From Haliotis asinina (Eukaryota; Mollusca; Gastropoda; Lepetellida; Haliotidae), in assembly GCF_037392515.1 (NCBI RefSeq), contig NC_090291.1, positions 19,123,501-19,187,500 on the forward strand: 64,000 nucleotides of DNA. The letters run 5' to 3'. Shown here piece after piece: positions 31,401 to 46,400 of this stretch (position 1 is its first letter; every line of letters starts with the position of its first letter). A program made the position numbers and the translations under genes. The notes beneath the pieces are model-generated. The model was not told the origin of the DNA, ran no database searches, and saw only the letters and a list, made by a program, of their open reading frames with translations.

Positions 31401-34400
31401 AGAGAAGCAGTACATTGTCCTCGGTCGGTACAGTATTAAAAAGATTCACCTGAATTGACTGTCAATGTGTATTCTCAACATGCATCAGTACAATCAAGGA
31501 TGGTACATGGTCACGGCTTGATAGAAGAAGCCATCAGAGCCGATGTCATGATTGCATGTGACGCATAATGCAAACATATTATTGTCAAATATGTTCGTAA
31601 AAGGACTTCACAGCACATGTCAGATGTACTTACTTATATTTGAAGTTGTGGCGGACGTAGTAGCTGATGTCGTAGCTGACGTAGTAGCTGACGTGGTTGC
31701 TGAAGTGGTAACAGATGTTGTAGCTGAGGTTGTTGCAGATGTAGTGGCTGACGTTGTGGCTGACGTTGTAGCTGATGTAGTAGCCGACGTGGTTGCTGAT
31801 GTTGTGGCTGAAGTTGTAGGTGAAGTGGTGGCTGATGTTGTTGCAGACGTAGTGGCAGACGTAGTAGCTGACGTTGTTGCAGAAGTTGTAGCTGATGTCG
31901 TGGCAGAGGTTGTTGCTGAAGTGGTAGCAGAGGTGGTAGCTGACGTTGTTGCAGACGCAGTTGCAGAAGTTGTGGCTGACGTAGTGGCAGACGTAGTTGC
32001 AGAGGTAGTGGCAGAGGTGGTAGGAGACGTGGTTTCTGATGTTGTTGCAGATGTAGTTGCAGAGGTTGTTGCTGACGTGGTAGCAGATGTGGTAGCTGAG
32101 GTTGTTGCAGATGTAGTGGCGGATGTAGTAGCTGAGGTTGTAGCCGAGGTTGTGGCAGACGTAGTTGCAGAAGTTGTGGCTGACGTTGTGGCTGACGTGG
32201 TAGCTGAGGTTGTAGCTGATGTGGTAGCCGACGTTGTTGCTGATGTTGTGGCAGAAGTTGTAGCTGATGTGGTTGCAGAAGTTGTTGCTGAGGTTGTGGC
32301 AGATGTAGTAGCTGACGTAGTAGCCGACGTTGTTGCTGATGTTGTGGCTGACGTTGTTGCCGACGTAGTTGCAGAGGTAGTGGCAGATGTGGTAGCAGAC
32401 GTGGTTGCAGAAGTCGTAGCTGATGTCGTAGCAGAGGTTGTTGGTGAAGTGGTAGCAGAGGTGGTAGCTGACGTTGTTGCAGATGTAGTGGCGGATGTAG
32501 TAGCTGAGGTTGTTGCAGATGTAGTTGCAGAAGTTGTGGCTGACGTGGTAGCTGAGGTTGTAGCTGATGTGGTAGCCGACGTTGTTGCTGAGGTTGTGGC
32601 TGAAGTTGTAGGTGAAGTGGTGGCGGATGTTGTTGCTGACGTAGTAGCAGATGTAGTAGCTGAAGTTGTTGCAGAAGTTGTGGCTGATGTCGTAGCAGAG
32701 GTTGTGGCTGAAGTGGTAGCAGATGTGGTAGGTGAGGTTGTTGCAGATGTGGTTGCAGAAGTTGTGGCTGACGTAGTGGCGGATGTTGTGGCTGAAGTGG
32801 TAGCAGACGTCGTGGCCGATGTCGTTGTTGTTGTGATGGACGTTGTGGCTGACGTTGTAGCAGATGTAGTGGCGGATGTGGTAGGCGAAGTTGTTGCAGA
32901 TGTTGTAGCTGAAGTGGTCGCTGATGTTGTGGGAGACGTTGTTGCCGACGTAGTGGCGGACGTAGTGGCGGACGTTGTAGCTGACGTAGTTGCGGACGTA
33001 GTGGCAGACGTAGTTGCAGAGGTAGTGGCAGAGGTGGTAGGAGACGTGGTTGCAGAGGTTGTTGCAGATGTAGTTGCAGAGGTTGTTGCTGACGTGGTAG
33101 CAGACGTGGTAGCAGACGTTGTTGCAGATGTAGTGGCGGATGTGGTAGGCGAAGTTGTTGCAGATGTTGTAGCTGAAGTGGTCGCTGATGTTGTGGGAGA
33201 CGTTGTTGCCGACGTAGTGGCAGACGTAGTGGCAGACGTAGTTGCAGAGGTAGTGGCAGAGGTGGTAGCAGACGTGGTTGCTGATGTTGTTGCAGATGTC
33301 GTTGCAGAGGTTGTTGCTGACGTGGTAGCAGACGTGGTAGCTGAGGTTGTTGCAGATGTAGTTGCAGAAGTTGTGGCTGACGTGGTAGCAGAGGTGGTAG
33401 CTGACGTTGTTGCAGATGTAGTGGCGGATGTAGTAGCTGAGGTTGTAGCAGATGTAGTTGCAGAAGTTGTGGCTGACGTGGTAGCTGAGGTTGTAGCTGA
33501 TGTGGTAGCCGACGTTGTTGCTGAGGTTGTGGCTGAAGTTGTAGGTGAAGTGGTGGCGGATGTTGTTGCAGACGTAGTAGCAGATGTAGTAGCTGACGTT
33601 GTTGCAGAAGTTGTGGCTGATGTCGTAGCAGAGGTTGTGGCTGAAGTGGTAGCAGATGTGGTAGGTGAGGTTGTTGCAGATGTGGTTGCAGAAGTTGTGG
33701 CTGACGTAGTGGCGGATGTTGTGGCTGAAGTGGTAGCAGACGTCGTGGCCGATGTCGTTGTTGTTGTGATGGACGTTGTGGCTGACGTTGTAGCAGATGT
33801 AGTGGCGGATGTGGTAGGCGAAGTTGTTGCAGATGTTGTAGCTGAAGTGGTCGCTGATGTTGTGGGAGACGTTGTTGCCGACGTAGTGGCGGACGTAGTG
33901 GCAGACGTAGTTGCAGAGGTAGTGGCAGAGGTGGTAGGAGACGTGGTTGCTGATGTTGTTGCAGATGTAGTTGCAGAGGTTGTTGCTGACGTGGTAGCAG
34001 ACGTGGTAGCTGACGTTGTTGCAGATGTAGTGGCGGATGTGGTAGGCGAAGTTGTTGCAGATGTTGTAGCTGAAGTGGTCGCTGATGTTGTGGGAGACGT
34101 TGTTGCCGACGTAGTGGCGGACGTAGTGGCAGACGTAGTTGCAGAGGTAGTGGCAGAGGTGGTAGGAGACGTGGTTGCTGATGTTGTAGCTGAAGTGGTT
34201 GCTGATGTTGTTGCTGACGTGGTAGCAGACGTGGTAGCTGACGTTGTTGCAGATGTAGTGGCAGATGTAGTAGCTGAGGTTGTAGCTGAGGTTGTTGCAG
34301 ACGTAGTTGCAGAAGTTGTGGCTGATGTAGTGGCTGATGTAGTGGCTGATGTAGTAGCTGAGGTTGTTGCTGAGGTTCTTGCAGAAGTTGTGGCTGACGT

Positions 34401-43400: not shown

Positions 43401-46400
43401 AGTTGTGGCTGATGTAGTGGCTGATGTAGTAGCTGAGGTTGTTGCTGAGGTTGTTGCAGAAGTTGTGGCTGACGTGGTAGGTGAGGTTGTAGCTGATGTG
43501 GTAGCCGACGTTGTTGCTGATGTTGTGGCTGACGTTGTTGCCGACGTAGTTGCCGACGTAGTGGCAGACGTAGTTGCAGAGGTAGTGGCAGATGTGGTAG
43601 CAGACGTGGTTGCAGAAGTCGTAGCTGATGTCGTAGCAGAGGTTGTTGGTGAAGTGGTAGCAGAGGTGGTAGCTGACGTTGTTGCAGATGTAGTGGCGGA
43701 TGTAGTTGCTGAGGTTGTTGCAGATGTAGTTGCAGAAGTTGTGGCTGACGTGGTAGCTGAGGTTGTAGCTGATGTGGTAGCCGACGTTGTTGCTGAGGTT
43801 GTGGCTGAAGTTGTAGGTGAAGTGGTGGCGGATGTTGTTGCAGACGTAGTAGCAGATGTAGTAGCTGACGTTGTTGCAGAAGTTGTGGCTGATGTCGTAG
43901 CAGAGGTTGTGGCTGAAGTGGTAGCAGATGTGGTAGGTGAGGTTGTTGCAGATGTGGTTGCAGAAGTTGTGGCTGACGTAGTGGCGGATGTTGTGGCTGA
44001 AGTGGTAGCAGACGTCGTGGCCGATGTCGTTGTTGTTGTGATGGACGTTGTGGCTGACGTTGTAGCAGATGTAGTGGCGGATGTGGTAGGCGAAGTTGTT
44101 GCAGATGTTGTAGCTGAAGTGGTCGCTGATGTTGTGGGAGACGTTGTTGCCGACGTAGTTGCAGACGTAGTGGCGGACGTAGTGGCAGACGTAGTTGCAG
44201 AGGTAGTGGCAGATGTGGTAGGAGACGTGGTTGCTGATGTTGTTGGAGATGTAGTTGCAGAGGTTGTTGCTGACGTGGTAGCAGATGTGGTAGCTGACGT
44301 TGTAGCTGGGGTTGTTGCAGATGTAGTTGCAGAAGTTGTGGCTGATTTTGTGGCTGAAGTTGTAGGTGAAGTGGTGGCGGATGTTGTTGCAGACGTAGTA
44401 GCAGATGTAGTAGCTGACGTTGCAGAAGTTGTAGCTGATGTCGTGGCGGAGGTTGTTGCTGACGTTGTAGCAGATGTGGTAGCTGACGTTGTTGCTGATG
44501 TTGTGGATGAAGTTGTGGCTGACGTAGTAGCCGATGTTGTGGCTGAAGTGGTAGCAGACGTCGTTGCCGATGTCGTTGTTGTGATGGATGTTGTGGCTGA
44601 CGTTGTAGCGGATGTGGTAGGCGAAGTTGTTGCAGATGTTGTAGCTGAAGTGGTGGCAGATGTTGTTGCCGACGTGGTTGTAGTCTGTAAGACTATCGGA
44701 TCACATGCTGGGTTGGCGTATCCTGGGTAGAATTGTGCATCTGGAGAAAGTAGTGTTTCATTTGGTGGATAGTGGGTTGTTAGTGACGGTCTACAATTCC
44801 AGAATAAGCAAGTAGGTGCGAGTGATTACTTGAAATATGTTCGAGGTGAAAAAAATGTTCACAGTGCCCAGAATAAAAGAGCATTCATGTTCCTTAGCCT
44901 TTGTATTTTCCGTTAATAAATTTTGGAATGTGTGAATACGGCACATTCTAATTATCAGTGAAACGAAATAAAAAAGTTGTCAGTGAACTTTATTCATGGA
45001 AAGTAGTTCTGTCAACCCTTATATTTCTTCTCTACGAAGCTGATGAATGAACGCCGTGAATCACTTAACATCAAAAATATATTACACGTGATCCCCTCTC
45101 CCGTATGGATTGTAATACCGAATTGTGAACAGTTTTCTTTGTTTATTACTGCTACAACCAGTGACTGACAGCGTGAGCAAAATATCCAGTGAGTATGACC
45201 ACCTGATCTGACATGCTACATTTTACTACTAAGGTTTTAGAGGCCCAATAACCCGAAACCCACCTCTAAACGCCAAGCTTTTATTGCCTTAGTTCATTAT
45301 CATTTTTTTGTTATTTTTTTCACGTTCCATTAAACTAGTAATCCAACAGCGCAGAAGGTTCACTGTCTTTCGAAATTAGACAAGACACGAACTGAAACTG
45401 CGTAGTATTTGGCAGACACCATTTGTTATTTCTGTCGGAAGAGGTCGGTAAACCTCCAAATGCCCAATTCCATGCACACCAACTAGCTGTGAATTTGAAA
45501 AGGCGCTTGGATGCAGTTACGATAATCTAATTGTGTGCAGCATAAACTTGGGAAACGATGACATGTGTCAATCAAGAATGGCCAAGTTAGTCGTCTCTGA
45601 TAATAATGTTTAAAATCATTTCCTCGCATTACGTCAACACTTTTGCATTCGCAAGTGTTTTGTGGGGAAAGGCGCATAGCAAGCTGTTGGGGCTTTCTGA
45701 ATCAATATCACTTCAGCAAGCCTGGCTTTCGAGCCTTAGGTCATCAGTAATTTCTGGAGGAATAAGGGACCTCCGCCGAAATACTAGTCCCCTGAAGATC
45801 GGGTTAGAATCGATCGTCAGTAACCCATGCTTGTCTTAAGAGGCAACTAACGCTATTTGGCAGACAGACAAGCGGACGTGGTTGACACGTGACATCATGC
45901 TGGTACTCACTGGACTGTTTTGTCTGACACGATTATTTATAGATTGCTGCCATAAACATACAACCACCCAACCACATTACACATTTTCCTGCAGCCCTAC
46001 TTTGTAAGTCACTGGCTAGCTATTCTCGAAACGTTCGTAGTCCTACGATGTTCTTAAGCCATTGGCTACGACCAAATCGACACAGTCTGACGATTTCGTT
46101 CCCTTAGCAACCCGAGCGCTTTGAGACGGACAGTGCTAAACGAAACAGACATCATTATTTTTCAGAGTTCATTTTTTATGAGAGTTTAACTTGGTCAGTA
46201 CGACTGTCCAGGTAGGCTTGACAGATGGATGGACATTATCTTCAAAATTTTTATGGAATATTTATTTAGCGCACATATCCACGCAAGTAGTGCTTGCTCA
46301 TGGCGCTAGTATTTTCTCCTTCGATCACTGGATGTCAATGAAAGTATTATCAGTCCAACTCCCTTGGGAGTATACAACTCTTGCATCTAGTCGCAGCGAG

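Follow-up and report, generated by a model that had tools for sequence, protein, structure and literature searches.

The window analysed here comprises 64,000 nucleotides of the gastropod Haliotis asinina (RefSeq assembly GCF_037392515.1, contig NC_090291.1, positions 19,123,501 to 19,187,500), and its minus strand carries, between window positions 31634 and 44740, a giant open stretch built from Thr-Thr-Ser-Ala (TTSA) tetrapeptides. We consider it very probable that this stretch is the ninth exon of a gene with a TATA box and 14 exons, whose product would be a giant secreted mucin of about 5,100 residues with a trypsin-fold tail, and that selection acts on the peptide which the exon encodes. 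What stands out is a tetrapeptide that has stayed fixed over nearly fully rewritten DNA in two tandem paralogues, combined with its fusion to a dead trypsin domain.

A first-pass annotation of this DNA had described a single minus-strand exon of 13.1 kb with clean AG/GT borders, matching phases and about 1,090 tetrapeptides, nearly all TTSA or TTSP, and this description holds in the sequence. The exon (44740-31634 in reading direction) is preceded by CTTTCTCCAG and followed by GTAAGTACAT, is entered and left in phase 1, and its 13,107 bp, a multiple of 3, contain 4,368 whole codons without a stop. It begins with a brief Cys-containing head, AQFYPGYANPACDPIV, from which the tetrapeptide run continues with 938 TTSA, 105 TTSP and 24 other TTSX tetrads (1,067 in all), and the array can be parsed into 1,063 regular tetrads and 21 irregular pieces. 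Threonine makes up 50%, serine 25%, alanine 22% and proline 2.5% of the residues, while Tandem Repeats Finder reports a period of 12 with 1,088 copies and 73% matches. A codon pattern for two consecutive TTSA units occurs 819 times in the window, and 806 of these occurrences fall inside the exon, which is genuine as a sequence feature.

The first-pass annotation had also taken the absence of a frame break as a pointer to selection. On its own, the open frame is a weak argument for coding, because the other frames of the array are nearly or fully open as well (3 and 2 stops in the remaining forward frames, none in the mirrored antisense frame). When units at a distance of 12 nt are compared, 6.7% of the first codon positions, 1.5% of the second and 70.7% of the third are different, so that the third positions are close to saturation, and neutral simulations started from one consensus (20 runs at each level) accumulate on average 11 stops at 10% and 154 stops at 50% substitutions per site. 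Given this far drift of the third positions and the stops that simulation produces, the open frame does gain weight. The main coding evidence, however, is the asymmetry between codon positions, together with in-frame gaps and matching splice phases.

Above the level of the tetrapeptide, 11 markers of the motif SITTT delimit 10 higher-order blocks of 543-1,509 bp that are 88-99% identical, and every gap between their copies is a multiple of 3. Among the 45 block pairs, which are non-independent events, 1,667 synonymous and 391 non-synonymous differences were counted, and the per-site non-synonymous/synonymous ratio rises with block similarity over three classes, from 0.09 through 0.15 to 0.16. 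Where the first-pass annotation had offered strong selection or very active homogenisation as explanations, selection stands, while homogenisation of the 12-nt unit is rejected by the third-position differences between adjacent units and by the presence of 90 distinct 12-mers among the 1,067 TTSX units. The scale of homogenisation is that of blocks of about 0.5-1.5 kb, and amplification of such blocks under peptide-level selection is supported by the sequence comparison. Gene structure, constraint on codons and amplification in blocks can all be read from the DNA itself.

A second gene of the same design lies upstream on the same strand. This paralogue has an equal number of 14 exons, joined in phase throughout into 3,500 amino acids without a stop, and is accompanied by TATATA at -58 and AATAAA at +81. 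Its exon 9 of 7,380 bp holds 594 regular tetrads and 16 irregular pieces, and its 15 block pairs give non-synonymous/synonymous ratios per site of 0.13 and 0.21. The giant exons of the two genes share only 2 distinct 24-mers (of 2,201 and 2,982) and not a single 36-mer, although 83% and 90% of the 24-mer windows recur inside their own arrays; the shorter words that both contain (187 distinct 15-mers, 26 distinct 12-mers) are likely to be shared because the peptide is fixed. Random units of one gene compared with those of the other differ at 4.8%, 1.7% and 71.1% of first, second and third codon positions when irregular units are dropped. Since the same peptide is kept with almost no longer repeat DNA in common, the peptide itself, and not the DNA, appears to be what selection protects. 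The two arrays may have grown independently, or a common ancestral array may later have been rewritten. Still further upstream, that strand has two more remote matches to the beginning of the trypsin domain, which read IPANC where the His would stand: one at 105831-105661 on the scale of the window (E 1.4e-6) and a weak one at 120266-120159 (E 0.02), with short Thr-rich frames in the neighbourhood.

In each of the two genes, the exons downstream of the array are predicted to encode an S1 trypsin fold that scores above the curated Pfam cut-off for PF00089 of 20.6 bits (paralogue, 55.1 bits, E=1.2e-14; exons 10-13 of the window gene, 26.4 bits, E=7.2e-6). S1 proteases depend on a catalytic triad of His, Asp and Ser. 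When the paralogue is aligned to plasminogen, Asp occupies the position of the catalytic His and Glu that of the catalytic Asp, while the Ser of the DSGG motif is kept; in the window gene, Gln and Glu are present at the corresponding positions, and the region of the catalytic Ser is one base out of phase. The trypsin fold that the first-pass annotation had placed next to the array is thus borne out as a fold in both genes, yet it has lost the catalytic His and Asp, and judged by these residues neither protein would be an active S1 protease. Invertebrate serine protease homologues such as masquerade and the clip-domain forms likewise combine a trypsin fold with an incomplete catalytic triad and non-catalytic roles; they differ from the present proteins in that Pfam scans found no clip domain here and in the giant mucin region that is present.

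Pfam scans covered most of each gene outside the arrays, together with shortened arrays and all but a few module copies; they gave no match to VWD and none to SEA, and no transmembrane segment was seen by eye in the trypsin-fold tail. Upstream of the giant exon, three AB modules and three six-Cys C modules follow each other in alternation. Scans of two single C modules matched 0 Pfam families at E up to 1, so that these modules are, by that test, not of the ShKT/SXC type. In genome-wide searches, all 7 reported trypsin-domain matches (E 0.001; 13 candidates) and all 5 reported C-module matches (E up to 1; 7 candidates) fall inside these two genes; both counts are lower bounds, because each search passed over exons that were found locally, among them three exons of the window gene's trypsin fold, as well as the distant upstream pieces, so that diverged relatives may exist elsewhere.

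Across the 1.14-Gb genome, the double-unit pattern, which detects exact TTSA pairs and leaves other Thr/Ser repeats uncounted, occurs 1,515 times in reverse and 10 times in forward orientation, more than expected by chance, since the backwards control yields 7 and 6. The region C12:19083501-19257500 accounts for 1,306 reverse matches, a locus on C2 for 204 and two further stretches for 4 forward matches, while the 11 matches outside these places are at about control level. The C2 locus (11801208-11835620) consists of 104 tandem units of 331 bp, each comprising a 216-bp phase 1-1 exon of TTSP/TTSA/TTSV repeats and a 115-bp intron. Among the 103 units examined, 102 have AG..GT and one AG..GC borders, the exon measures 216 bp in 102 and 204 bp in one, none contains a stop, and 34 distinct peptides are represented. 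Among 37 exon copies, divergence is spread almost evenly across codon positions (2.2/2.3/2.6%), compared with 4.3% among 13 introns, so that the copies look recent. Hence, this genome appears to hold two routes to a similar domain, one giant exon and the multiplication of an exon-intron unit, which offers a natural comparison. Two smaller observations on the plus strand may be added: C2:11880001-11890000 has, at locus position 6033, a 535-residue TTSP/TTSI/TTSA open frame that has smaller TTS frames close by and may belong to a further Thr/Ser repeat gene, and C1:3122001-3132000 has two short TTSA/TTSP frames at locus positions 5244 and 8734.

By composition, the predicted product qualifies as a mucin, with a long Ser/Thr-rich tandem-repeat domain whose repeats lie in a single large exon (smaller arrays occur in other exons) and with Ser plus Thr at 69% of 5,103 residues in the strict reading of the window gene. 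We infer that the protein would be secreted by means of the signal peptide-like N-terminus encoded by exon 1, and that its Thr/Ser runs would be densely O-glycosylated, giving a stretched, water-holding bottlebrush, while the cysteine modules between the arrays would either cap this brush or join one chain to another. The trypsin-fold tail, having lost its catalytic His and Asp, may serve as a binding or assembly domain instead of an enzyme. What selection would then preserve is the distance between glycosylation sites (Thr-Thr-Ser plus a small residue): the amino acid unit is held constant, whereas synonymous positions change and the blocks are reordered. The array has grown through amplification of the blocks described above, with gaps in multiples of 3.

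Comparison with published mucins places the gene both near to and apart from known systems. In human MUC5AC, cysteine modules lie between the repeat arrays, as they do in the window gene. The present protein differs from MUC5AC in its low-proline tetrad, in the lack of a VWD match in the scans and in its trypsin-fold tail; the two share Thr-Thr-Ser runs, as the repeats of MUC5AC are PTTSTTSX octads with Ala and Thr commonest at X, each octad being close to two of the present tetrads (PMC12559463). Human MUC12 and MUC3A/MUC3B resemble it in having one giant tandem-repeat coding exon and clustered paralogues (PMC13345508, preprint; PMC9578598), and MUC12 alleles reach 23,080 amino acids (PMC13345508, preprint). 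The view of the first-pass annotation that repeat exons of this size are known in vertebrate mucins is therefore upheld by MUC12, while its claim of a longer, more complex unit in those mucins goes too far in the light of the MUC5AC octads; neither unit type nor exon size goes beyond known mucins. The units of MUC3 have a length of 17 residues, and MUC3B includes SEA as well as transmembrane parts (PMC9578598), whereas no SEA was found in our scans and both paralogues retain one short unit. Chicken Muc13 spreads its mucin repeats across near-identical exons and thus provides a precedent for the C2 locus with one repeat per exon (PMC1552070); unlike the window gene with its single repeat exon, it is a membrane mucin with SEA. 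The TES mucins of Toxocara canis resemble the window gene in placing small six-Cys modules beside Thr/Ser arrays (cited within PMC7333891), but the present C module had no Pfam match and is not, by that test, of the ShKT/SXC type.

The lack of VWD and SEA matches in most non-array parts speaks against placing the predicted protein in the known structural mucin classes. We lean, with no great confidence, towards regarding it as a separate, lineage-specific class of giant secreted mucins without VWD or SEA, with a dead-trypsin cap and with an exact tetrapeptide kept fixed while the DNA of the array was almost wholly rewritten. Literature on mollusc mucins and on trypsin-mucin fusions showed no counterpart to this architecture in the search listings, and a text search of 5.39 million papers for TTSATTS, TTSPTTS and TTSATTSA found its sole occurrence in an unrelated sensor paper. 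Mucin repeat domains have been described as generally poorly conserved and polymorphic (PMC9578598), a picture that is here reversed by a tetrapeptide that remains constant over thousands of residues in tandem paralogues. On this basis one can ask which property of a mucin domain is visible to selection, namely the distance between glycosylation sites and neither length nor DNA. Its inactive trypsin-fold tail, together with the C2 locus where such a repeat grew by multiplication of an exon-intron unit, makes the locus suitable for work on the origin of giant mucins beyond the VWD and SEA families.

Several observations weigh against the interpretation of the window gene as an intact mucin gene under selection on its peptide. 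Phases are consistent through exon 13, over 13 exons and 5,069 codons without a stop or frame break, but exon 14 is shifted by one base against exon 13, and a strict reading stops after 34 off-frame residues, at 5,103 amino acids. The conserved frame of exon 14 retains 48% identity to the paralogue across 46 residues and would be restored by a weaker upstream donor inside exon 13 (AC|GTGTGA); the mismatch may be a matter of alternative splicing or of an error in the sequence, or the window copy may be decaying in its C-terminal domain. The acceptor of exon 3 was selected by phase, the non-synonymous ratio peaks among the youngest block pairs, and proline, at 2.5%, is scarce for a classical PTS domain. 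A protein database search returned 2,868 candidates, none at E 0.001; the query was the paralogue from which the giant array and the greater part of exon 7 had been removed, scored on the trypsin domain. Finally, an exact repeat of 792 bp, the longest found, and blocks of up to 99% identity make the copy number assembly-dependent.

A secreted Thr/Ser-rich glue, silk-like fibre, egg coat or shell-matrix protein, as opposed to a mucin of mucus, is an unlikely alternative that nevertheless has some force, for the low proline content and the lack of VWD and SEA matches would suit it; composition, Cys-flanked arrays and the MUC5AC-like repeat fit a mucin, without being decisive. It is rather improbable that the window copy is a decaying pseudogene and the intact paralogue the working gene, a reading that draws on the phase of exon 14, the disturbed region of the active-site Ser and the GC donor of exon 12, and to which it must be conceded that a new pseudogene would look alike. 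Against such decay speak the 13 exons that read through without a stop or frame break, a non-synonymous ratio that is still low among block copies, and the presence of promoter and poly(A) consensus sequences. Somewhat less probable again is that the exon is real while its length is a product of the assembly, with blocks collapsed or duplicated and a different true number of tetrads. The similarity of the 10 blocks and the long exact repeat would allow this, but no block pair reaches 99.5% identity, the gaps are all in frame, the paralogue has a separate 7.4-kb array, and the chromosome-sized contigs (C12 measures 58 Mb) suggest, without proving, that long reads were used.

That the array is a non-coding minisatellite, open by composition alone, is very improbable and was rejected: the near-open forward frames would permit it, but divergence confined to third positions, in-frame gaps, fitting splice sites, Cys modules that recur in the flanking exons, an equivalent exon in the paralogue and the stops produced by neutral simulation all speak against it. 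We likewise reject, as scarcely credible, coding by the plus-strand frame (Val-Val-Ala-Asp/Glu)n, which is open for 4,392 codons (31552-44730) and has the same wobble positions, because its Asp/Glu mix of 683 to 360 is that expected of a free third position of Thr, and modules and splice sites were fitted on the minus strand, the only strand on which a gene model was built.

The exon chain of the predicted mucin gene (Table 1) was modelled by hand on the minus strand from repeated peptides and splice signals. Across the 14 exons, the acceptors are AG and the donors GT, with the single GC exception of exon 12; introns 1-9 are in phase 1, and five trypsin-fold exons follow the giant exon.

Table 1. 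Features of the predicted mucin gene and of its paralogue within the window
Feature	Position	Strand	Remarks
TATA box (TATAAA)	57445..57450	minus	53 nt upstream of start codon; consensus match only
Exon 1, start codon and signal-peptide-like MMSFRLFLVLCLVVNGAPVNG...	57319..57397	minus	donor GTAAGT, ends in phase 1; signal peptide judged by eye
Exon 2, Cys-rich head, TTSA array (54185-54466), Cys tail	54118..54558	minus	phase 1-1
Exon 3, AB module, ...SCCSN end	53537..53683	minus	border of least certainty (acceptor)
Exon 4, six-Cys C module	51992..52111	minus	phase 1-1
Exon 5, AB module and short TTS array	50269..50475	minus	phase 1-1
Exon 6, C module	49390..49509	minus	phase 1-1
Exon 7, AB module, TTSA array (48156-48305)	48061..48375	minus	phase 1-1
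Exon 8, C module, peptide identical to exon 6	47198..47317	minus	phase 1-1
Exon 9, giant exon	31634..44740	minus	13,107 bp, phase 1-1; A-module head, then ~1,090 TTSA/TTSP tetrads; 10 marker-delimited higher-order blocks
Exon 10, start of trypsin-fold domain, TSKQC at His position	27302..27491	minus	phase 1-2
Exon 11, trypsin fold	26583..26710	minus	phase 2-1
Exon 12, trypsin fold, Glu at catalytic Asp position	25458..25595	minus	GC-type donor (GCAAGT)
Exon 13, trypsin fold	22861..22955	minus	phase 1-0
Exon 14, C-terminal trypsin-fold exon	22238..22415	minus	paralogue-conserved frame shifted by one base against exon 13
AATAAA polyadenylation-like signal	22078..22083	minus	155 nt past exon 14; consensus match only
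Paralogue, last exon (DSGGALVC...)	63608..63786	minus	remaining 13 exons outside the window (C12, window scale 69884-98242)

Rfam and tRNA scans of the whole window gave no match. Within the introns of the gene, the plus strand at 23831-24359 (between exons 12 and 13) holds frames that resemble, by eye, pieces of a Tc1/mariner-type transposase, with sub-cut-off Pfam helix-turn-helix (HTH) matches for one piece and none for the other, and a 53-bp tandem repeat of 12 copies is present at 25854-26498 (between exons 11 and 12). Elsewhere in the window, strand-skewed tandem repeats are found at 5633-6164 (40 bp, 13 copies) and 8435-9339 (34 bp, 27 copies), while the minus strand contains a 549-residue frame with ankyrin and armadillo repeats at 1756-3405 and, at 17616-18164, a frame that matches glutathione peroxidase (PF00255, E=2.7e-19).

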